Positions 4,778-16,443 of a DNA stretch of 64,000 nt are shown piece after piece. The notes beneath the pieces are model-generated. The model was given only the letters and a program-made list of their open reading frames with translations, was not told the DNA's origin and searched no databases. Numbering within the stretch: position 1 is the stretch's first letter; every line of letters begins with the position of its first letter. The DNA is from Bacteroidales bacterium (GTDB lineage Bacteria; Bacteroidota; Bacteroidia; Bacteroidales; UBA932): the NCBI GenBank assembly GCA_022653675.1, contig JALCST010000007.1, forward strand, positions 62,001 through 126,000, in the 5' to 3' direction. The position numbers and the translations under genes are program-made.

Positions 4778-5728
4778 ATGAAAAAGATGAATCTGCATGT
4801 TTTCGGAGTTGTTGCGACGATGGTTATCGCCGCGGGGGTTTCCTCCTCTTGCATACACAAGACGCTTTGCTACGATTCGAGGCACCTGACGAAAGTCGTC
4901 GTGAATATAGATTGGGCGAATGCCCCGGAGTCCCCGTCCGGTTCGCACGTGGCTTTCTACGACGCGAACGATCCCACCACATTCTATTATTTCGATATGG
5001 AGGCGAACGGCGGTGAGGTGGAAGTGCCTAAGGGAAATTACAACGTGATCTGCTTCAACAACGATTCCGAAACCATCCTCTACAGGGACGAAAGTTCCTT
5101 CGACACATACGAGGCTTACACCAGGACGACCTCCCTTCAGGAGACTTCGTTCGGGGCCGGAGCCAGCCTGCCGAGGTCCAGCGCCGACGAGGACCAGGAT
5201 GTCGTGCTTTGCCCTACGGATTTTTACCGCGACATGGACGATAACGTGAAACTTCTCGAGAATCAGGTGAACTACGTCTATTTCCAGCCCGACTCGGCCA
5301 TTCTGACATATACTTACGAAGTCATAAACATCGAGAACATCAATCTCGCCACGAAATGCGGGGCGGCCATTTCCGGCATAGCCGGTTCCATGTTCCTGGG
5401 CTCCGGAGAGCTGGGAACCACAAAGAACGTGCTTCCTCTGGATGCGACCATCTCGGGCGACAAGGTAACCGGTTCCTTTACGCTTTTCGGACACGATACC
5501 GGATCTTCGAACAAGAACTACTTCACCCTTTACATCTGGTCGCCGGGAGGAAACTTCTACGCCACTTTCGACGTGACTGACCAGATGGACAGCTATCCGG
5601 ACCAGAAACACGTCCACCTCATAATCGACGCATCCGGGATTTACATCCCTGAGCCTATCTCCGAAGGCGGAGGCATCGAACCCGGCGTCAACGACTGGGA
5701 GGATGTGAACGAAGACATTATAATGTAA
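4778..5728 (+). CDS. DUF5119-like fimbrial anchor lipoprotein (FimB/Mfa2 type)
   Basis: A 316-residue protein with a lipoprotein signal (SSSC). The mature N-terminus, with CYDSRHLTKVVVNIDW and PKGNYNVICFNND, is typical of the DUF5119 / Mfa2-FimB group, which anchor the fimbrial base in the outer membrane. The C-terminus is acidic (GGIEPGVNDWEDVNEDI). A strong Shine-Dalgarno sequence, AGGAGGG, sits 8 nt before the ATG. This is unusual for this phylum and contrasts with the A/T-rich leader of the fimbrillin that follows 32 nt downstream. The family call rests on pattern and position. Confidence 0.72.
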   Translation: MKKMNLHVFGVVATMVIAAGVSSSCIHKTLCYDSRHLTKVVVNIDWANAPESPSGSHVAFYDANDPTTFYYFDMEANGGEVEVPKGNYNVICFNNDSETILYRDESSFDTYEAYTRTTSLQETSFGAGASLPRSSADEDQDVVLCPTDFYRDMDDNVKLLENQVNYVYFQPDSAILTYTYEVINIENINLATKCGAAISGIAGSMFLGSGELGTTKNVLPLDATISGDKVTGSFTLFGHDTGSSNKNYFTLYIWSPGGNFYATFDVTDQMDSYPDQKHVHLIIDASGIYIPEPISEGGGIEPGVNDWEDVNEDIIM

Positions 5729-5760
5729 TTTACAATAAATAATACAATCAATCTACTATT

Positions 5761-6798
5761 ATGAAAAAGGTAATTATTTTAGCAGCCATCGCTGCGCTCA
5801 CTCTGACCGCTTGTTCACAGAACTCGGTCATCGAAACTCCCGCCGAAGACGCCATCGGCTTCTCGGCATTCTCTCCTGTTCCTACCAAGGGAACTGTCCT
5901 TACAGGAACAACTTTGAATCCTTATTACAAGGAATTCACAATTTACGCTTACCAAGGCACTACGACTTTCATGGACGATATTTCCTATGTCTACGGTAGC
6001 GCATGGGATTATGCCCATTCGACGGACAAGAAATATTGGCCTTCAGACGAAACCAAGAAGATCAATTTTTATGCCTACACTTCTTCCTCCGACAACGAAT
6101 TGTCAGCAAGCGTATCATCCAGTGCCCAGACCCTGGATATCACCGTTCCTACAGACAATGCAAGCCAGGAGGATATCCTCGTAGCCGAGTGTCTCAACGC
6201 GACCAAGAGCGACCGCGATGGTGATAACAGTGCTTCCCTCCCTACTACCGGCGGAGTCCCTATGGTATTCAAGCACGCACTTTCGCAGGTCAACTTCAGT
6301 GCCAGGAACGATTCGACCAGCATAATCAAGGTTACATTAAGGGGCATAACCGTACAGAACGTCCTTAACGAAGTTACCAGCACGTTTGCTGCGGTTTCTT
6401 CCAGTCCTAATTCGAACGTTTCTAATTATTCGGCCGGACTGAACGGGTCAGCCATCGTATTGACAAATAGCGCTTCAAGCGTCATGGCAAACGACGGACA
6501 TCTCATTCTCGCTCCACAGACGACCGCTGCATGGAATCTCACAAGTAGTAATACCGGCGCACGTTTCGCCATAGACTGCAAGGTAGAAGATACTGTTTCA
6601 GGTGTGGTTTACTACGACGGGACGGTTTACGTACCTGTAAGTGTAGCATGGGTCCCTGGTTACAATTATACCTACACCTTCGTATTCGGAAAGGGTGCCG
6701 GCTACGACGATAACGGCGACCCTGTCCTGAACGTTATTTCCTTCGTACCTACTGTCACTGCTTGGACCGATGCCACCGGAGAGACGGTCACGATGTAA
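5761..6798 (+). CDS. Fimbrillin family protein, copy 1
   Basis: A 345-residue lipoprotein (lipobox LTAC) whose mature part begins near the IGFSAFSPVPTKG segment typical of Mfa-like/FimA-like fimbrillins (PF13149 group). The body has recurrent family motifs: KKYWPSDETKKINFYAY, MVFKHALSQVNF, and GHLILAPQTTAAW. It is probably the shaft subunit, exported as a lipoprotein and matured by a protease at the cell surface; the cleavage site is not proven. The ATG lies in an A/T-rich context (ACTATTATG) without a Shine-Dalgarno sequence. A close paralogue is at 10301-11341 in the same position relative to a large tip protein. Confidence 0.85.
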   Translation: MKKVIILAAIAALTLTACSQNSVIETPAEDAIGFSAFSPVPTKGTVLTGTTLNPYYKEFTIYAYQGTTTFMDDISYVYGSAWDYAHSTDKKYWPSDETKKINFYAYTSSSDNELSASVSSSAQTLDITVPTDNASQEDILVAECLNATKSDRDGDNSASLPTTGGVPMVFKHALSQVNFSARNDSTSIIKVTLRGITVQNVLNEVTSTFAAVSSSPNSNVSNYSAGLNGSAIVLTNSASSVMANDGHLILAPQTTAAWNLTSSNTGARFAIDCKVEDTVSGVVYYDGTVYVPVSVAWVPGYNYTYTFVFGKGAGYDDNGDPVLNVISFVPTVTAWTDATGETVTM

Positions 6799-6819
6799 TT
6801 TAATAGATTATAGCATTTT

Positions 6820-6873
6820 GCGGAGAGGATCCGCATACCCTGGCCGGAAGGGGTTGAATGTTCCCCTTCCGGC
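6820..6873 (+). ncRNA. Intercistronic double hairpin, copy 1
   Basis: The gap between fimbrillin and tip gene holds GCGGA/TCCGC (6820-6824/6830-6834) followed by an 11-bp stem GCCGGAAGGGG/CCCCTTCCGGC (6843-6853/6863-6873) with loop TTGAATGTT. No T-run follows, so it is unlikely to be a simple terminator. The same arrangement is at 11363-11416. The closing pair of the long stem is G-C here and A-T there, so it covaries. A role in mRNA processing or in setting the pilin-to-tip ratio is inference. Confidence 0.65.
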
Positions 6874-6893
6874 TACAAAAAAAAGACAGAAAA

Positions 6894-9797
6894 ATGAAAA
6901 CGCGATTTAAAAACATCGGATTGCTTGTCCCGACGATGCTTCTCATGGCGGCCATGACGGTTCCCGTCTCCTGTGTCAGGGATGAAACCGGGAACGATTT
7001 CGGCGGGCAGGATGAAATAGGGTTCAAGACCGCTATTTCCGAAGACAACTGGACTCCCGTCACCAAATCCGGATACATACCTACCGACAGCAGCGATTCC
7101 CTCCTTATCAGGGAGGACGTTACCGTCAACCAGCCGGTCGTGACGAAAGGCTCCATGGTCGATGCCATAAGCACATACGGTTCCTTCGGTACTTTCGCAT
7201 ACGTATATGCGAGCACTTCTAACTGGAGTTCGGCGAAAAGCGGCCTGACCCCGAACTTCATGTACAACCTGAAGTCCGAGGATATCGGCGGCGAATGGCG
7301 TCCTTCCGACGGGACTTATTACTGGCCTGCCGCCACCTATAAGGTTTCATTCTTCGGTTATGCCCCGTACGTCGACTATATGGTCGGCGGTACCGATCCG
7401 GTGTCCGACCACATGCAGATATCCGGAGCTACCGCCACCGGTGCTCCCGTGATTGATTATACGGTTCCTGCGAAGATAGCCGACCAGATAGACCTGATGA
7501 CCGCCGATTCCATAGACGTTCCGGGCAACTACCATCAGGCGGTACCGATGACTTTCCGCCACGTCCTTTCGGGCGTACGCTTCAATGCCAAGACCCAGGG
7601 CCTGGACATTACGATCAAGAAAGTCACCATTTCGAATGTTTACGACCACGGCACCCTGGCGATCGACGAAAATGCATGGGACCTTTACGGTACCAAATCC
7701 GATTACACTTTTCCGACCGATCTTTCCGTCGACGGTACTTCCGTCGCGGTAAACGATCCTACGGACAGCCTTTTTTTCATGTTGCCGCAGACGTTGCCTT
7801 CCGGTTCGACCCTCAGCGTCACGTATGTGATGAACGGTATTGAAAATACGGCCACCGCCGATTTCTCCGGAAAGGTTTGGGAGATGGGGAAGATTTACAT
7901 CTATAACCTCACTATCGATGCCAACGTGATTTATTACACCTTTACGATTACCCAGGTCTCGGCACCGGGGGACAACAGCGACAATGCGGTTTACAAGGTG
8001 GTGAGCACCAGGACCACGGATTACGGCAACGGCAATCCTATCGTTGAGAACGTTCCCTATTCCATCAACGGCCTCCCTTCCGGAGTCACTTATACCAAAA
8101 ACAACGACAGCACCTTAACCATAACTGCCGCTGCCCGTACAGGCATCGATTCCACCATAATTTGCGGTTCTTCCTATGCGATGCGCACGTTGGATTCCCT
8201 GACCGGCCCAATCGACCTGACGACAGGTGCTGTTTATAACGGCAACCGGGGGGAAACCGCCAACTGCTACGTGATAAACCAGGCGGGTTATTACTGTTTC
8301 CCGGTCGACGTGATGGGGAATGGGGATGACGGCATTATTTATTCGGATGATAATAAAATAAATGAAAACGGCTATTTCATCAATTACGAAGGCAACAGTC
8401 TCACTACCAATTCCGGTAGCGGACAAAGGGCATCGATCTCGCCCAACGGATGTGAAGCGGTACTTCTTTGGGAAGATGCAAAGGGATTGATACAGGATCT
8501 TACACTTGACGGCGATTACGTGAGGTTCAAGACCATGCCGAAAGACGAAATGACTCCGGGCAATGCAGTCATAGCACTAAGAACTCAAGGGGGAAATAGT
8601 ATAATCAAGTGGAGCTGGCACATCTGGTGCACCCTTCCGACAGGATCCCACCCATATACGGATCCAATGACCGGACGGGATTCCACGCTTACGGTCGAAG
8701 GTGTTTCGATGCATGATGATCAAGGTACCGCATTCAGCACGGCGCGTTATAGCGAAGGCCCTGTAACTTGGTATGATAGATGGGGCTTGCCACATACGTC
8801 TTATGATACGATAGCTACGCCATATGCGACCAAGATAATGAGCGTCAATCTCGGTTCCGTGGAGCGAAACAGGAAGTTCATATGTTATCCTTCGCGCAGT
8901 TTCGGTTTCACCGCAGTCCAGAATGTGACGGGGAATTCGGCTGACGGGACATATTCTCAGAATGAAACTGATGTAGACATAATTCCTGCCGGAACCACCA
9001 ACACCCTTTACCAGTGGGGACGCAAGGACCCGTTCATAAGCGGCAACATATCTACTTATGTAAGCGACAACACCAGCTTGTATTATAATTCCAAACACGA
9101 GGGTGGAACCAATACCTTCACACTTGAGGGAAGCAGCGATTCAAACGAGAGCGACGGAGTTTTCGGAACCTATTCGGTACAAGATAACAGTTATATTCCA
9201 GACGGTGGAGATATGGATAGCAAATACCCTACCAATCTTAAGTTTGCCATCCGCCATCCTATGACATTCATATATAATACCCACCAATTGAATTATAATT
9301 ATAGTTGGAATAATTATTCTGATATGACCACTCCGGTTGACTGGTTCACTTATCACATTGATGTTGTCAGTGACTATGATGATGTTGATATACGTTACGA
9401 CAATGCATTGCTTTGGGGGGCTGGTTACCATGAACATAAATATCAATTTTCGTCCGTAAAGACCATATACGATCCATCCCCTGCCGGCTACAAGGTGCCC
9501 GTAGGATACTGTTACGGTTCCAGTTTCTTCTATCTGACCGGAGTATTCGATTATGGCAACTATACTAACGTCGGTTTCTTCCCTGCCACCGGAACGAGGG
9601 ATTCGAAAACCGGCAAACTCCATAACATGGGAGTGAGGGGAGATTTCTGGGCATCCTCGTTGAGATTTGTATATCAGGGCATGGATACCGCGTGCGGCAT
9701 CGTCAATGCGAACGGGGAATTCGGCCACAGTTACGAACAGGACACCTTTAATAGGGGTGAAGCATTGAGTGTCAGGCCTGTAGGAGAAGATTACTAA
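6894..9797 (+). CDS. Large fimbrillin-like tip protein, copy 1
   Basis: A 967-residue surface lipoprotein (VPVSC lipobox). The N-terminal third is fimbrillin-like (GEWRPSDGTYYWPAATYKVSFF, split here as GEWRPSDG and YYWPAATYKVSFF, then VPMTFRHVLSGVRFNAK). A middle beta-rich part contains ETANCYVINQAGYYCFPV. The C-terminal 250 residues (NTLYQWGRKDPF, TIYDPSPAGYKVP, GDFWASSLR, ending SVRPVGEDY) resemble the FISUMP/major-paralogous domain often seen at the end of Bacteroidales surface proteins. Size and position after the fimbrillin suggest an adhesive tip subunit. The ATG at 6894 is preferred to the upstream in-frame one, which lies in the hairpin loop. A paralogue is at 11430-14324. Confidence 0.78.
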   Translation: MKTRFKNIGLLVPTMLLMAAMTVPVSCVRDETGNDFGGQDEIGFKTAISEDNWTPVTKSGYIPTDSSDSLLIREDVTVNQPVVTKGSMVDAISTYGSFGTFAYVYASTSNWSSAKSGLTPNFMYNLKSEDIGGEWRPSDGTYYWPAATYKVSFFGYAPYVDYMVGGTDPVSDHMQISGATATGAPVIDYTVPAKIADQIDLMTADSIDVPGNYHQAVPMTFRHVLSGVRFNAKTQGLDITIKKVTISNVYDHGTLAIDENAWDLYGTKSDYTFPTDLSVDGTSVAVNDPTDSLFFMLPQTLPSGSTLSVTYVMNGIENTATADFSGKVWEMGKIYIYNLTIDANVIYYTFTITQVSAPGDNSDNAVYKVVSTRTTDYGNGNPIVENVPYSINGLPSGVTYTKNNDSTLTITAAARTGIDSTIICGSSYAMRTLDSLTGPIDLTTGAVYNGNRGETANCYVINQAGYYCFPVDVMGNGDDGIIYSDDNKINENGYFINYEGNSLTTNSGSGQRASISPNGCEAVLLWEDAKGLIQDLTLDGDYVRFKTMPKDEMTPGNAVIALRTQGGNSIIKWSWHIWCTLPTGSHPYTDPMTGRDSTLTVEGVSMHDDQGTAFSTARYSEGPVTWYDRWGLPHTSYDTIATPYATKIMSVNLGSVERNRKFICYPSRSFGFTAVQNVTGNSADGTYSQNETDVDIIPAGTTNTLYQWGRKDPFISGNISTYVSDNTSLYYNSKHEGGTNTFTLEGSSDSNESDGVFGTYSVQDNSYIPDGGDMDSKYPTNLKFAIRHPMTFIYNTHQLNYNYSWNNYSDMTTPVDWFTYHIDVVSDYDDVDIRYDNALLWGAGYHEHKYQFSSVKTIYDPSPAGYKVPVGYCYGSSFFYLTGVFDYGNYTNVGFFPATGTRDSKTGKLHNMGVRGDFWASSLRFVYQGMDTACGIVNANGEFGHSYEQDTFNRGEALSVRPVGEDY

Positions 9798-9834
9798 GGA
9801 AACCATACAAGAAATCTTATCATAATTTTGTCGT

Positions 9835-9863
9835 GCCCCGCGTCGTGAGATGCGGGGCTTTTT
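9835..9863 (+). terminator. Rho-independent terminator after tip protein copy 1
   Basis: GCCCCGC (9835-9841) pairs with GCGGGGC (9852-9858) over a 10-nt loop and is followed by TTTTTG. It separates module 1 from module 2, which therefore needs the promoter found just downstream. Confidence 0.85.
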
Positions 9864-9880
9864 GTTAAAAAAGTATAAAA

Positions 9881-9976
9881 CGTAAACTAAACGGAATAAA
9901 ATGATAACAATCGGGTAGAAAAATCACTGTTCCTTTGTCACCGAAAAGAAAAAAAGATCAATTTTCCTGTTGCTGA
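9881..9976 (+). promoter_or_regulatory. Fimbrial promoter 2 and leader element
   Basis: It contains CGTAAACTAAACG (9881-9893; 12 of 13 identical to promoter 1), TGATAAC (9902-9908), TTCCTTTG (9930-9937; one mismatch to TANNTTTG) and CCTGTTGCTGA (9966-9976). The order and nearly the same spacing match 3315-3400. The weaker -7 box predicts stronger dependence on an activator than at promoter 1. Confidence 0.6.
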
Positions 9977-10300
9977 AATGGAAAAGAAATTTTTAAACAC
10001 CGTACTTCATGTGTCATGTCATGCACTGAAGTTTCTTGCAGAAAGGCTCCGGCCATTCCGCAGAAAAAAGAGCATGGCTTTCCGTCGTACGATCCTGACG
10101 CAACGCGAAGAAAGATCACAACTTTCGGAGCAATGCGTAATTCTGTAAATCACATACTGGAAAACACGAACGCAGTCGAACTGCAGAACGTCGTCCTCAC
10201 GGATGGCGAAGGCTGCAACTGTGCAGGGGATCGCATTTCTCATGACGACGAAGAAAATAAATTCAATAAAATAATGAAAACAATTAAAAAACAAACTATT

Positions 10301-11341
10301 ATGAAAAAGATTCTCACATTCGCAGCAATTGCAGCTGTACTCGTTCTCAGTTCCTGTTCACAGGATTCACTTATCGAAACTCCTTCCGAAGAAGCGATCG
10401 GATTCTCGGCATTTTCTCCGGTTCCAACGAAAGGTACGGTTCTGACCGGAACTTCGCTCGAGTCGCATTGGACTTCCTTCTATGTAGACGCTTTCCAGGG
10501 GAGCACGGCTTTCATGACCGATCTTCAATATACATATGGCACAACTTGGGATTACGCCAATTCCTCATACAAGAAATACTGGCCGAGCGACACCGAAACC
10601 GGAATAGATTTCTATGCGTATGCTCCGGCAAAGGACGACAACTTCGCGGTTAACGTGACTTCTGCAGCACAGAGCTTGCTAATTACCGTTCCTCAGACAG
10701 TCACCGCCCAGGAAGACATATTATATGCGGAATGTGTCGGAGCCACCAAGGACGACCGTAACGGCTCCGCAGACGGAACTCCTACTTCCGGAAGCGTTCC
10801 GATGGTCTTCAAGCATGCGCTTTCGCAGATCAACTTCATGGTAAAGAATTCGGCGACCGACGTAATCGACGTAACCGTTACCGGCATAGCCGTCCAGAAC
10901 GTCAAGAACCAGACATCTTGTACTTTCGCAGGCGTATCTTCCGTTCCTGAGAGTGCAACGTCAGCCGACTATTCCGCAGGCCTCAGCGTAGTTTCATTCT
11001 CCCTTACGGATACTGCAGTAAACGTAATGGCTGACAATGGCCACCTGATTCTCGCTCCTCAGACTACAGCGGCATGGACACCGGCTTCGGAAAACAACGG
11101 GGCACGCTTCGCAATAACCTGCAAGGTCAAAGATCACAACTCAGACGTGGTCTATTACGATGGTACGGTTTACATACCGGTATCCGTCAATTGGGAAGCC
11201 GCAAAGAACTATACTTACACATTCGTCTTCGGAGAAGGCGCCGGCTATGACGAAGGAGGGAAAGAAGTCCTGAATATGATCACCTTCACTCCTTCGGTTA
11301 CCGACTGGACTAATGTCAGCGAACCAAGCACTAACATGTAA
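10301..11341 (+). CDS. Fimbrillin family protein, copy 2
   Basis: A 346-residue lipoprotein (LSSC lipobox), clearly a duplicate of the fimbrillin at 5761-6798. They share IGFSAFSPVPTKGTVLTGT, the KKYWPSD segment, MVFKHALSQINF, GHLILAPQTTAAW and the YTYTFVFGEGAGYD-type end. I chose the ATG at 10301 by alignment with copy 1 and because the signal peptide then begins MKKILTFAAIAAV; an in-frame ATG at 10274 would add nine residues. It lies under its own promoter behind a terminator. Sequence differences lie mostly in surface-exposed stretches such as SLESHWTSFYVDAFQG, which suggests antigenic divergence. Confidence 0.85.
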   Translation: MKKILTFAAIAAVLVLSSCSQDSLIETPSEEAIGFSAFSPVPTKGTVLTGTSLESHWTSFYVDAFQGSTAFMTDLQYTYGTTWDYANSSYKKYWPSDTETGIDFYAYAPAKDDNFAVNVTSAAQSLLITVPQTVTAQEDILYAECVGATKDDRNGSADGTPTSGSVPMVFKHALSQINFMVKNSATDVIDVTVTGIAVQNVKNQTSCTFAGVSSVPESATSADYSAGLSVVSFSLTDTAVNVMADNGHLILAPQTTAAWTPASENNGARFAITCKVKDHNSDVVYYDGTVYIPVSVNWEAAKNYTYTFVFGEGAGYDEGGKEVLNMITFTPSVTDWTNVSEPSTNM

Positions 11342-11362
11342 TTCGAATCGAAGAACAATAAC

Positions 11363-11416
11363 GCGGACAAAGTTCCGCACCCCTGACCGGAAGGGGTTGA
11401 ATGTTCCCCTTCCGGT
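11363..11416 (+). ncRNA. Intercistronic double hairpin, copy 2
   Basis: GCGGA/TCCGC (11363-11367/11374-11378) is followed by an 11-bp stem ACCGGAAGGGG/CCCCTTCCGGT (11386-11396/11406-11416) with the same loop TTGAATGTT as copy 1. The loop of the small hairpin has changed while its stem is conserved, and the closing pair of the long stem changed from G-C to A-T. This supports selection on RNA structure. Confidence 0.65.
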
Positions 11417-11429
11417 TCCTTAGACAAAA

Positions 11430-14324
11430 ATGATGATCAAGATACTCGAACATACGGCAAACAGGATAGCGGTGATTGCGCTGGCAGCATTGCTTTCCGC
11501 CGCCTGCATCAACGATACCCCGGATTCCGAGGTCGTTTCGCAGACACAGATCGGCTTTACCGCAGATGTCACGTCCGCATCTTGGAATGCGCTGACTAAA
11601 TCGAGCATGATAAGTACCGATGCCGATTCCGTCAACATAGAGGAGGAAGTTACGGCATTCGACGGTGAAGAGGTCGCTACCAAAGGGGCCAGGGTCGATG
11701 CAATCTCCCAATACGGTTCATTCGGGACTTTCGCATATGTATATCCGAACTCAAAGAATTGGGCTTCGGCGAAGTCGGCTCTCACGCCCGATTTCATGTA
11801 CAATATCGAATCGGAAAACATCGGCGGCCAATGGCGTCCGTCGGATAAGGAGTATTACTGGCCGGCCGCATCATACGCGATCTCGTTTTTCGCATATTCA
11901 CCTTATATGGATTATAAGACCAACGGAACCCCGGTATCGGACTTCATGAAGATTTCTGGTTCCACGACCACGGGAGCTCCCGTAATAGACTATACGGTTC
12001 CTGAAGAACTCGCGAACCAGATCGACCTCATGACAGCCGATTCCACCGACATATCATGCAGCTATCATCAGGCGGTTCCGATGAATTTCCATCACGTGCT
12101 TTCCGGCGTCCGCTTCAACGCCAAAACCTACGGCGCCGAGATAACCATAAGGAAAGTCGAGATTTCCAATGTATATGACCACGGAACTTTAGCCATGGAC
12201 GGTAATGCCTGGAATCTTTCGGGTACGAAGGACGATTTCACATTTTCCACTTCGCACACCGTTTCCGGCTCATCGGTCGAAATAAACGATGCTTCTGACA
12301 GCCTCTTTTTCATGCTTCCCCAGACATTGCCTTCCGGCGCGAAGCTTACCGTCACCTATGTGATGAACGGCAGCGAAAACACCGCTACCGCCGATTTCTC
12401 CGGAAAGGTTTGGGAGATGGGAAAGGTCTATGCCTATAACCTCACTCTCGATGCCAACGTAATTTACTACACCTTGACGGTGATTCCGGTTTCCATGCCT
12501 GGAGACGACTGCAACGATGCGGTCTACAAGGTCGTCAGCACGAGGACCAAAGACAATGGCAACGGCAGCCCGGTAGTCGAGGATGTCCCTTATACCATCA
12601 GCGGCCTGCCCGACGGAGCCTCGTACAAGGTCAACGGAGACGGTACCTTTACCGTTACCGCCGCCGCCCGCGAAGGCAAGGATTCGGTACTCACATGCGG
12701 TTCCGCCTATGCCATGCGCAACATACAAGCTCTCAATTATAACGGTTCAACCCCTATAGATCTCACTACCGGGGAAGAATATACGAACTCCGCCGAAGGC
12801 GAAACCGCGAACTGCTATGTCATCAATTGCGCCGGATATTACTGTTTCCCTGCAAATGTAATGGGGAACGGCGATGACGGCGTGATCAAGAACAATTCTT
12901 ACGGGATCAGTGAAAACGGCTATTTCGTGGATTACCAATATAAGAACGGAAAAACTTACCTCTCGAATGCGCAGTTGAACACTACGGGGTGCAAAGCCGT
13001 CCTGCTGTGGGAGGACGTCAAGGGATTGATAGACGAAAGTACCATCGAATTGACATCCAACCATTACATAAGGTTCAAGACCGTACCCAGGGACGAAATA
13101 ACCCCCGGCAATGCAGTCATAGCGCTGGAGGGAGCCGACGGTACGATCCGGTGGAGCTGGCATATCTGGTGCACCCTGCCGAGCAAAGATTATACGTATA
13201 ACGATCCCAATACCGGAAGGGATACCACCATTTTCGTCAAAGGCATTTCGATGCACGGCGACGGCGGGACCACGTTCAATACGGCACGTTATAAAGAAAC
13301 CTCTTACGGATGGTTCGGCACCAAGGTTACGAGTTCTTCATACCAGACGAAAATAATGGATGTCAATCTCGGGTCGGTGGAACGCAGCAGGAGGTTCGTA
13401 TGCTACTCTTCCAGAAACTTCGATTTCCGTGTTACCCAAAACATCAGCGGCAATTCCGCCGACGGGACATATTCCCAGGCGGAGAAGGATATAGACATCG
13501 TTCCTGCGGGAACCACCAACACCCTTTACCAATGGGGGAGAAAGGATCCGTTCGTCAGCGGCAACATTTCGACGGTTGCAAGCGACAATACCAGTACCTA
13601 TTACAATGCCAAACACGAGGACGGAACCAATGTCTTCACCCTTTCTGGTAACAGCAAAAACAATGAAAAGAACGGAATTTTCGGAACATACCCGGTACAG
13701 GACAACGATTATATTTCAGGTTCGATATATGGTAACACGAGCAATTATGCAGTCAATCTCCAGTTTGCCATCCAACACCCGATGACGTTGATCTCCAACA
13801 CCCATTCGCTGAATTATAATTACTGGTATGGTAAATACTCCCAGATGACTACTCCAGTGGATTGGTTCACCTACCATATCGATGTTTATAATGGCCAGGA
13901 CATAGAGGATATTTCGGTACGTTACGACAACGCCCTGCTTTGGGGGGCCGGTTATTACGAGCATGAGAACCAGTGCTCTTCCGTTAAGACGATTTACGAT
14001 CCGTCTCCGGCCGGCTACAAGGTGGCCGTCGGATACTGCTACGGTTCTGAATACATAGAAACTACGAAACCGTTCGATTACGGCAACTATACTAATGTCG
14101 GTTTCTTCCCGGCTACCGGTACACGCGACTCGCAGACCGGAGAACTCCGCAATATGGGAGTCAGGGGAGATTTCTGGGCATCCTCATTGAGATTCGTAAA
14201 CGGAGGCATGGATACCGCGTGCGGCATCGTCAATGCTGACGGGGAATTCGGTCACAGTTACGAACAGGATACCTTCAACAGGGGTGAAGCACTGAGCGTC
14301 CGACCTGTCGGAGAAGATTATTGA
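11430..14324 (+). CDS. Large fimbrillin-like tip protein, copy 2
   Basis: A 964-residue paralogue of the protein at 6894-9797. It has a signal peptide with a lipobox-like AAC at the end of the hydrophobic stretch and a fimbrillin-like N-terminal third (GGQWRPSDKEYYWPAASYA, VPMNFHHVLSGVRFNAK). It also has the ETANCYVINCAGYYCFP segment and the same FISUMP-like C-terminus ending in SVRPVGEDY. The last 100 residues are almost identical between copies, while the region around residues 620-650 differs sharply. It is the last gene of the fimbrial locus and faces the GH97 gene. It is probably an alternative adhesin tip. Confidence 0.78.
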   Translation: MMIKILEHTANRIAVIALAALLSAACINDTPDSEVVSQTQIGFTADVTSASWNALTKSSMISTDADSVNIEEEVTAFDGEEVATKGARVDAISQYGSFGTFAYVYPNSKNWASAKSALTPDFMYNIESENIGGQWRPSDKEYYWPAASYAISFFAYSPYMDYKTNGTPVSDFMKISGSTTTGAPVIDYTVPEELANQIDLMTADSTDISCSYHQAVPMNFHHVLSGVRFNAKTYGAEITIRKVEISNVYDHGTLAMDGNAWNLSGTKDDFTFSTSHTVSGSSVEINDASDSLFFMLPQTLPSGAKLTVTYVMNGSENTATADFSGKVWEMGKVYAYNLTLDANVIYYTLTVIPVSMPGDDCNDAVYKVVSTRTKDNGNGSPVVEDVPYTISGLPDGASYKVNGDGTFTVTAAAREGKDSVLTCGSAYAMRNIQALNYNGSTPIDLTTGEEYTNSAEGETANCYVINCAGYYCFPANVMGNGDDGVIKNNSYGISENGYFVDYQYKNGKTYLSNAQLNTTGCKAVLLWEDVKGLIDESTIELTSNHYIRFKTVPRDEITPGNAVIALEGADGTIRWSWHIWCTLPSKDYTYNDPNTGRDTTIFVKGISMHGDGGTTFNTARYKETSYGWFGTKVTSSSYQTKIMDVNLGSVERSRRFVCYSSRNFDFRVTQNISGNSADGTYSQAEKDIDIVPAGTTNTLYQWGRKDPFVSGNISTVASDNTSTYYNAKHEDGTNVFTLSGNSKNNEKNGIFGTYPVQDNDYISGSIYGNTSNYAVNLQFAIQHPMTLISNTHSLNYNYWYGKYSQMTTPVDWFTYHIDVYNGQDIEDISVRYDNALLWGAGYYEHENQCSSVKTIYDPSPAGYKVAVGYCYGSEYIETTKPFDYGNYTNVGFFPATGTRDSQTGELRNMGVRGDFWASSLRFVNGGMDTACGIVNADGEFGHSYEQDTFNRGEALSVRPVGEDY

Positions 14325-14356
14325 TAACTTTTGTAGCCACAGGCAGTCTCTCAAAA

Positions 14357-14392
14357 AAGGAGGGCGACTGAAATCTTTCAGTCGCCCTCCTT
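14357..14392 (-). terminator. Terminator of the SGNH-GH97 operon (possibly bidirectional)
   Basis: A 17-bp perfect stem, AAGGAGGGCGACTGAAA with its complement at 14376-14392. On the minus strand it runs into TTTTTT, so it best serves the GH97 gene. On the plus strand the following TTCGATTA is a poor tract, so stopping the fimbrial transcript there is less certain. Confidence 0.85.
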
Positions 14393-14409
14393 CGATTATA
14401 GATAGCCCT

Positions 14410-16443
14410 TTATTTTGCCGTGACCTCTACGGCTGGTTTTATGATGGCCGAATATCCGCCTCCCGGCATCAGGTGGATCTGCAGACCGCTGTCGTGTGTG
14501 ACGTTGATATTTCTGATGGAATAGTCCTCTGCGTTTTTGTCCGCGTTGATCCCGTCTTCGTAAATCGTGGCTGTGTATTTTTTATCCCTCTGAAGGAAGG
14601 AGAGGTTCACCGAGAGATCCTGCTCATCCAAGTTGCCGAGCGCCCCGACATAATAGGAATCTCCCTTGCAACGCAACATGACGATATTCTTGCCTACCTT
14701 GCCGTCAAGGACCCTGCTTCCGTCCCAGACGACGGGGATCGAAGTTATGAAATCGGTGGTTTCCCGATTCTTGATATATTCGGAAGGGGAATCGCACAGC
14801 ATCACCAAAGGAGAGTCGAATACGATGTAGGCTGCTACCTGGTGCGAACGTGTTCCCTGGCTCGAAGGTTTCAAGTATATGGGACGGTAATTCTCCTTAG
14901 TGGCGTTCCTCATGGCACCTTGCGTATAGTCCACGGGTCCGGACATCATCCTGATGTAGGGGAAAGTAACGTCGTATTCCGGATGGACGAAATCCTTTTC
15001 CCATTTGACCTGTTCCTCGCCGAAAACGCCTTCGCAGTTGAGGACGTTCGGATAGCGCCTGTTCAAGCCGGCCGGTTTGAACATTCCGTGGAAATCTATG
15101 ATAAGGTGGTATTCGGCCGCCTTGGCGGCAATCCGTTCGACCATGTCTACGGCTTTCTGGTCGTCGCGGTCTATGAAATCCACCTTCATTCCCTTGATTC
15201 CCATTCCGCCGTAATATTTGCAGGCCTCGTCCAGTTTCTTGTCGAGCACATAGGCGACGGTCCAGATGATCAGTCCGACATTCTTTGAGTCGGCGTAGCG
15301 TACGAGATTTTCGAGGTCTATTTCAGGGATTGACGTCATTATGTCCTGTCCTTTCGGGGGACTCCAACCTTCGTCGAGAATGACATATTCTATGCCGTTT
15401 GCGGCGGCGAAGTCTATGAAATATTTATACGTTTCGTTGTTTATCCCGGCTTTGAACGGGACTCCCGTCAGTGCCCAGCCGTTCCACCAATCCCATGCTA
15501 CTTTGCCGGGCTTGATCCAAACTGTATTGACGAGTTTGCAGTCGCCTCCCAAGAGATAGACGAGGTTGTCGGCCAGGATGTCCTTGTCGGAAGCCGCGAT
15601 CGACATTATACGCCATGGATATGTCCTCGCTCCCTTGACTTTTGCTATGATTGAAGAATATTCGGCTACGATTTCCTCGCCCCGTTTAGGGGTAACTTCG
15701 GTCTTAGCCGGAACCGGGGCGAACACGCCTTTAACGCCTTGGCCGTCGGCTTTCAAGAACATACCGGGATAAGATTCGATGTCGGATTCGGTAATCGTAA
15801 GTTTCACGCCGTTCCCTATGTCGAACAGGGTGGGAGTGAAGGCGATTTTAGAACCGTCCATCCCGCTGACCGGCCCTACTGTTGTATAGGTGTTTTCGAA
15901 TGAAGTCTTGAATTGATTGTCCGCCTTGCCGTTGGAGAAGGCCATCCAGCATTTGTAGTCCGACGGAAAATTGAATTCGGCTGTTTCCGAAATGATGTTG
16001 CGATCGCCTTTCAAGGTGGTGTAGAATCGGTAAGCTATTCCGCTGTCGTATGCCCTGAATTGCAATCCGAACCCCTTCGGGAATTTCAGGTCGATCTGGT
16101 TATAGTACTCTATGACACTGCCTTGCCTGTAATACAAAGTTTTGATCGTATCCCGGACTGTACTTTTGGTAAGCCTGGCGCGTTTTTCGGCGTTGCCTAG
16201 AATGGTACCGTCCCCAAGTTCCAACGCTATTCGCGAAGGAGAAATGACCTCTTTGCCATACCGGTACAGAGTATACCCGATGCTGCTTCCTACCGTGATC
16301 TCGACTCTCAACTCCTTGTCGGGAGAGGTGACGACATATTTCTTCGGTTTCCGTGCAGCAAAGGTATTGCTGCCTGCAACGGATAACATTGATACTGAGA
16401 CCAAAGCCAGTACCAACTTCCCTAAAACATGTTTTCCTTTCAT
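14410..16443 (-). CDS. Glycoside hydrolase family 97, probable retaining alpha-galactosidase type
   Basis: A 677-residue secreted glycosidase with an N-terminal signal peptide. It has the GH97 N-terminal beta-domain (about 35-290), a (beta/alpha)8 catalytic domain containing EYVILDEGWSPPKG and GMKVDFIDRDD, and a C-terminal beta-domain. GH97 enzymes split into inverting alpha-glucosidases (SusB-like, two Glu as base) and retaining alpha-galactosidases with an Asp nucleophile. Here D422 in KVDF sits where the retaining group has its nucleophile, so I favour alpha-galactosidase-type activity. The ATG overlaps the stop of the esterase gene (ATGA), so the two are co-translated. Substrate is not proven. 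Confidence 0.87.
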   Translation of the reverse strand: MKGKHVLGKLVLALVSVSMLSVAGSNTFAARKPKKYVVTSPDKELRVEITVGSSIGYTLYRYGKEVISPSRIALELGDGTILGNAEKRARLTKSTVRDTIKTLYYRQGSVIEYYNQIDLKFPKGFGLQFRAYDSGIAYRFYTTLKGDRNIISETAEFNFPSDYKCWMAFSNGKADNQFKTSFENTYTTVGPVSGMDGSKIAFTPTLFDIGNGVKLTITESDIESYPGMFLKADGQGVKGVFAPVPAKTEVTPKRGEEIVAEYSSIIAKVKGARTYPWRIMSIAASDKDILADNLVYLLGGDCKLVNTVWIKPGKVAWDWWNGWALTGVPFKAGINNETYKYFIDFAAANGIEYVILDEGWSPPKGQDIMTSIPEIDLENLVRYADSKNVGLIIWTVAYVLDKKLDEACKYYGGMGIKGMKVDFIDRDDQKAVDMVERIAAKAAEYHLIIDFHGMFKPAGLNRRYPNVLNCEGVFGEEQVKWEKDFVHPEYDVTFPYIRMMSGPVDYTQGAMRNATKENYRPIYLKPSSQGTRSHQVAAYIVFDSPLVMLCDSPSEYIKNRETTDFITSIPVVWDGSRVLDGKVGKNIVMLRCKGDSYYVGALGNLDEQDLSVNLSFLQRDKKYTATIYEDGINADKNAEDYSIRNINVTHDSGLQIHLMPGGGYSAIIKPAVEVTAK

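Follow-up and report, generated by a model that had tools for sequence, protein, structure and literature searches.

A tRNA-like predicted cleavage hairpin in the pilus operons of Bacteroidales

Between the genes for the main pilus subunit and the next subunit, many gut and oral Bacteroidales carry a small RNA hairpin that appears to imitate the end of a tRNA, and it probably invites the tRNA-processing enzyme RNase P to cut the shared message so that the main subunit and the tip can be made in different amounts. The element was first seen in a 64-kb stretch of Bacteroidales DNA (the “window”), where both fimbrillin-tip gaps hold a small hairpin, then exactly 6 nt, then a hairpin of 12 base pairs. 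An unbiased DNA scan of 84,980 genomes returned the same hairpin at about 50 other Bacteroidales sites, nearly all directly after a fimbrillin gene, and no element was found outside Bacteroidales. We assign a probability of roughly 0.68 to the reading that the large hairpin is a tRNA acceptor/T-arm minihelix mimic and the double hairpin an RNase P processing cassette; cleavage itself is inferred from sequence and structure. The features of the window are as follows.

5761..6798 (+), fimbrillin 1, the upstream cistron (PF13149 Mfa_like_1, E 1.1e-19)
6819..6835 (+), small upstream hairpin 1 (TGCGGA-gagga-TCCGCA), proposed to protect the 3' end of the pilin mRNA after the cut (gap fold p=0.02 against shuffles)
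6836..6841 (+), 6-nt single-stranded leader, with the proposed RNase P cut after 6841
6842..6874 (+), minihelix 1, a 12-bp stem (6842-6853 with 6863-6874) and loop TTGAATGTT at 6854-6862 (covariance model R1, 64.7 bits)
6875..6878 (+), 3' tail ACAA (R73-C74-N-A)
6894..9797 (+), downstream tip-type lipoprotein 1 (N-terminal Mfa_like_1, E 2.3e-23)
10301..11341 (+), fimbrillin 2 (PF13149, E 3.2e-21), 60% identical to fimbrillin 1
11363..11378 (+), small upstream hairpin 2 (GCGGA-caaagt-TCCGC; p=0.01 against shuffles)
11379..11384 (+), 6-nt leader, with the proposed RNase P cut after 11384
11385..11417 (+), minihelix 2, a 12-bp stem (11385-11396 with 11406-11417) and loop TTGAATGTT at 11397-11405 (model R1, 53.9 bits)
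11418..11421 (+), 3' tail CCTT (C74 kept, 73 and 76 off consensus)
11430..14324 (+), downstream tip-type lipoprotein 2, 66% identical to tip 1

Both gaps were read and folded. The duplicated double hairpin described in an earlier note is real: the large stems lie at 6843-6873 (GCCGGAAGGGG-TTGAATGTT-CCCCTTCCGGC) and 11386-11416 (ACCGGAAGGGG...CCCCTTCCGGT), and the small hairpin keeps its stem but not its loop. One point required correction. The note gave 11 pairs and took the covarying G-C (6843/6873) versus A-T (11386/11416) as the outer pair, but a basal G·U pair (6842/6874 and 11385/11417) lies outside it and makes 12 bp, a length that turns out to matter. The large hairpins are two of only four perfect stems of at least 11 bp (loop 3-12) in the window, their sequence occurs twice in the 2.18-Mb genome (an 85.8%-complete draft), and a covariance model found nothing else there above chance. 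Of 238 perfect 12-bp hairpins with loops of 5-10 nt in this genome, six besides window copy 1 have an R-C-H-A tail; none has the loop, and they look like chance.

The two elements lie in tandem cassettes, each with a fimbrillin followed by a tip-type lipoprotein of roughly 965 aa. Upstream are an AraC-type regulator, a DUF3575 protein and a DUF5119 protein. Tip 2 gives no Pfam fimbrillin match at E up to 1, although it is 66% identical to tip 1, which matches at 2e-23. An intrinsic terminator, GCCCCGCGTCGTGAGATGCGGGGC-TTTTT, follows tip gene 1 at 9835-9858, so the two pilin-tip cassettes may be separate transcription units, and a perfect 16-bp hairpin, AAGGAGGGCGACTGAAATCTTTCAGTCGCCCTCCTT, at 14357-14392 between tip gene 2 and a convergent gene is probably a bidirectional terminator. 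The window's genome shares a family with genomes whose elements match Candidatus Cryptobacteroides and Merdivivens records, although this placement is inferred.

A search for related loci with the fimbrillin as query found no relatives, and the DNA pattern was used instead. Several fimbrillin homologs in the same family with only 28-37% identity also have a strong hairpin right after the stop codon. A search of 399 family genomes for the 17-nt apical part, with up to one mismatch, gave 15 matches against 1 for the reversed control pattern; eleven of the 15 (two of them in the window) sit in a gap after a fimbrillin-type gene with an extended stem, and the other four look like chance. The exact scan of 84,980 genomes gave 79 stretches. 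Fifty-one matches are Bacteroidales intercistronic sites, in Bacteroides, Alistipes, Butyricimonas, Millionella, Porphyromonas uenonis, Prevotella, Leyella, Dysgonomonas, Rikenella and others, while the remaining 29, mostly from other phyla, have no lower stem. Individual loci are designated below by “L” numbers. L016 and L007 were rejected as members because their stems are not 12 bp, and L013 is degenerate. Of 50 upstream proteins (window included), 39 match PF13149 and 2 match the fimbrillin C-terminal family; of 40 downstream proteins, 27 match PF13149 and 4 match the anchor Mfa2. Apart from the window's own pair, the fimbrillins share only 13-30% identity with the first one, so the RNA element outlasts the protein sequence. 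Some Bacteroidales operons (L058; L038 with L079 on the same contig) carry two elements, one after each of successive fimbrillin-type genes.

Model R1 was then used to scan 393 Bacteroidales genomes and matched in 21 of them, one of these being only a tRNA. Of 21 hits outside the window, 19 follow fimbrillin-type lipoprotein genes (13 pass PF13149 and 1 Fimbrillin_C), one more follows an Mfa-like lipoprotein (L118), and one is the 3' half of a real tRNA-Ser (L133), a cross-hit that speaks for the tRNA likeness of the element. The model found the element in 4 of 26 genomes of one genus and, in a phylum-wide sample of 385, in none but the window's own genome. The element is thus patchy, but because the large scans use a strict first look these counts should be considered lower bounds.

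Two copies and one covarying pair alone would be weak evidence. Structural conservation in homologous loci, which had been set beforehand as the test of the idea, is clearly present. In 41 Bacteroidales elements with the 9-nt loop, all eight pairs not fixed by the search pattern show two-sided changes, 96.3% of cells are paired, and there are 100 two-sided cells against 27.7 (sd 5.9) in shuffles and 3-16 in slid controls. Note that loop and GGGG/CCCC invariance in this main set is by construction of the search, and that some loci are closely related. G·U is the commonest pair at one position (pair 8/38, 27 of 41), which speaks for RNA rather than DNA pairing. This bears on the possibility of a DNA site for site-specific recombination that swaps tip cassettes, suggested by two directly repeated copies 4.5 kb apart in tandem cassettes and by two roughly 11-bp arms and an asymmetric spacer of tyrosine-recombinase size. 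Here, however, the arms vary freely with compensatory and G·U pairs while the spacer is conserved, the opposite of recombinase sites, and the elements lie on the coding strand after a fimbrillin; we consider this reading very unlikely.

An intrinsic terminator or attenuator that lets some polymerase through is equally improbable, although the stem is stable and lies between a high-copy and a low-copy gene. No T-run follows the window stems, only 1 of 52 elements has a T-run of 4 or more within 20 nt of the stem, and the downstream flank is A-rich, whereas the real terminator of this locus at 9835 (GCCCCGC...GCGGGGC-TTTTT) looks different. The loop AUG was also considered as a start codon and rejected: the distance to the next stop ranges from 4 to over 100 codons, so there is no conserved uORF, and the in-frame loop ATG of copy 1 is not shared by copy 2.

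Stem length was assessed in 52 pattern-found elements, in which the lower stem had not been selected. Pairing is near complete through position 12, at 1.00 at position 12, 0.13 at position 13 and 0.00 at position 14; the 29 off-target matches show no stem and give 0.34 and 0.17 at positions 13 and 14. The 3' tail is R-C-N-A in 47 of 52, against about 6% expected for the motif from local composition, with R73 in 49 of 52 and C74 in 51 of 52, but position 75 is Y in 35 of 52. The 30 tRNA genes of the window's own genome (L136-L165) have C74 in 29 cases, although CCA is mostly not encoded, and show the same looseness at position 75, as if RNase P pairing preserves C74 alone. The class A RNase P RNA is present in this genome (L135, positions 1501-1831); it lacks the P18 helix that the other seven Bacteroidales P RNAs examined have. 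GGU, the partner of R73-C74-C75 (PMC11143913), is kept in all eight of these P RNAs. It lies in the P15/16 internal loop (GGGUAG), and a placement in another loop was rejected.

The loop of the main class is UUGAA plus 3-4 nt and is closed by a G-C pair, and homolog L128 has GGGGTTCGACTCCCC, a canonical T-arm with loop UUCGACU. Position 56 is, however, G where tRNAs have C, most loops have 1-2 extra nt, and a minority class (L006, L008, L011, L014) has loop CUGACC, which is not an obvious T-loop, although it keeps the 12 stem positions and an NCNA tail and may be a distinct solution to the same recognition. The element lacks the cloverleaf with D-arm and anticodon arm of a tRNA gene and does not match a known Rfam family: ARAGORN finds no tRNA at the element in the window, L124, L128 or L132, there is no Rfam tRNA hit at 5500-15000, and Rfam 15 gave only chance miRNA hits elsewhere. 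We found no report of this element in Rfam or the open literature, although literature searches cannot exclude a description elsewhere.

In 60 gaps, the segment from the fimbrillin stop to the minihelix folds far better than dinucleotide shuffles (mean z -2.16; 33 with p at most 0.05, 3 expected; Wilcoxon 9e-10). The last pair lies a median 6 nt before the stem, which together with the avoidance of pairs 13-14 leaves a single-stranded 5' leader. For comparison, same-strand gaps of the window's own genome gave a mean z of -0.14 with 10% significant, and segments between element and next start gave -0.71 with 7 of 33 significant. An 18-bp example ends 5 nt before the stem (L054). The sequence of the upstream hairpin is not conserved, which fits a generic 3'-end block.

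RNase P reads the stacked T and acceptor stems as a 12-bp ruler and pairs RCC with GGU 292-294 (PMC11143913). Minihelices are substrates (PMC11221534), and the D-loop is dispensable while a T-loop or similar loop is needed (PMC4919913). In our model, RNase P would measure 12 bp from the T-loop-like loop, pair its P15/16 GGU with the R-C-(Y) tail and cut just 5' of the stem, most likely at 6841|6842 and 11384|11385. The upstream product, pilin mRNA, would end 6 nt after the small hairpin, which would block 3' exonucleases, and the downstream product, tip mRNA, would begin with the minihelix. The two halves of one transcript could then decay and be translated at different rates, favouring excess pilin over tip. 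What the analysis itself establishes is the conserved structure with its covariation, exact length and tail, its restriction to fimbrial operons, the matching tail rule in the genome's tRNA genes, the conserved GGU in P RNA and the enriched hairpin 5' of the proposed cut; binding and cleavage by RNase P, 3' protection and the stoichiometric effect are inferred, without expression, 5'-end or coverage data. Some features fit less well. N-1 is usually A, while U is favoured in well-studied pre-tRNAs, window copy 2 has the off-consensus tail CCTT, and copy 1 can form a T-A pair at -1/73.

The interpretation in the earlier note, a processing or stabilising element rather than termination alone, is partly supported. 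Termination is indeed a poor explanation and a processing element is the best reading, but the note did not see the resemblance to a tRNA minihelix (12 bp, T-loop-like loop, RCNA tail), which points to a specific enzyme and a specific cut site, and its proposal that the element sets pilin:tip stoichiometry remains an inference.

The tRNA mimic could instead be real but serve another tRNA-recognising enzyme, such as RNase Z (a 3' cut after position 73), a CCA-adding enzyme, a T-loop modifying enzyme or a synthetase-type regulator of tip translation. The 12-bp stack, T-loop and discriminator are read by RNase Z and other tRNA enzymes, and homologs of RNase P and Z are both listed for B. thetaiotaomicron (PMC7366714). 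We consider this unlikely. C74 is near-invariant and CCA-like tails are antideterminants for RNase Z, there is no conserved synthetase identity element (position 3:70 varies: C-G 22, G-C 11, others), and a hairpin placed a median 6 nt 5' of the stem is explained by a 5' cut, not a 3' cut. More doubtful still is a plain stabilising or exonuclease-blocking hairpin at the pilin 3' end, as in REP-type or pap-type operons, with no tRNA mimicry. The GC-rich stem between pilin and the next gene and the structure-only upstream hairpin would suit it, but a plain block does not need exactly 12 bp, a conserved loop, avoidance of pairs 13-14 or an RCNA tail.

It is somewhat more likely than not that Bacteroidales type V pilus operons carry a dedicated, order-wide, evolutionarily maintained mini-tRNA signal that recruits RNase P to split the pilin mRNA from the tip mRNA, with a partner hairpin that caps the new pilin 3' end. 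If so, it would be a conserved class of mRNA element whose purpose is RNase P cleavage. RNase P is known mainly for tRNA maturation; its mRNA targets appear scattered, and its targeting rules in mRNA are an open question (PMC11143913). A small, repeated, conserved mRNA element with a predicted cut site makes this directly testable. It also offers an answer to how Bacteroidales, important gut and oral colonisers, could make far more pilin than tip from one operon, and gives a natural portable part for splitting operons in Bacteroides.

The closest comparison is with the tRNA minihelix model substrates of bacterial RNase P (pATSer-type), which share the acceptor/T-stem stack, terminal loop, short single-stranded 5' leader and, in part, the RCCA-type 3' end (PMC11221534, PMC11143913); the present element is natural, lies inside an mRNA, is conserved across an order, and has the loop UUGAAUGU(U) and a tail R-C-N-A without a full CCA. 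RNase P is reported to act on polycistronic mRNAs in E. coli (the his operon and the Li and Altman 2003 set, cited in PMC11143913); those sites appear scattered and are not known to share a conserved tRNA-like element, whereas here one element recurs in one gene context. The MALAT1/mascRNA element is a tRNA-like structure in a non-tRNA transcript that directs RNase P to make a 3' end (cited in PMC4919913), but it is a cloverleaf-like module in a eukaryotic lncRNA rather than a bare minihelix in bacterial operons. Intercistronic stabilising hairpins of pilus operons such as papA give the kind of differential stability of major pilin mRNA within an operon that is proposed here, but there through RNase E plus a plain stem, with no tRNA features.
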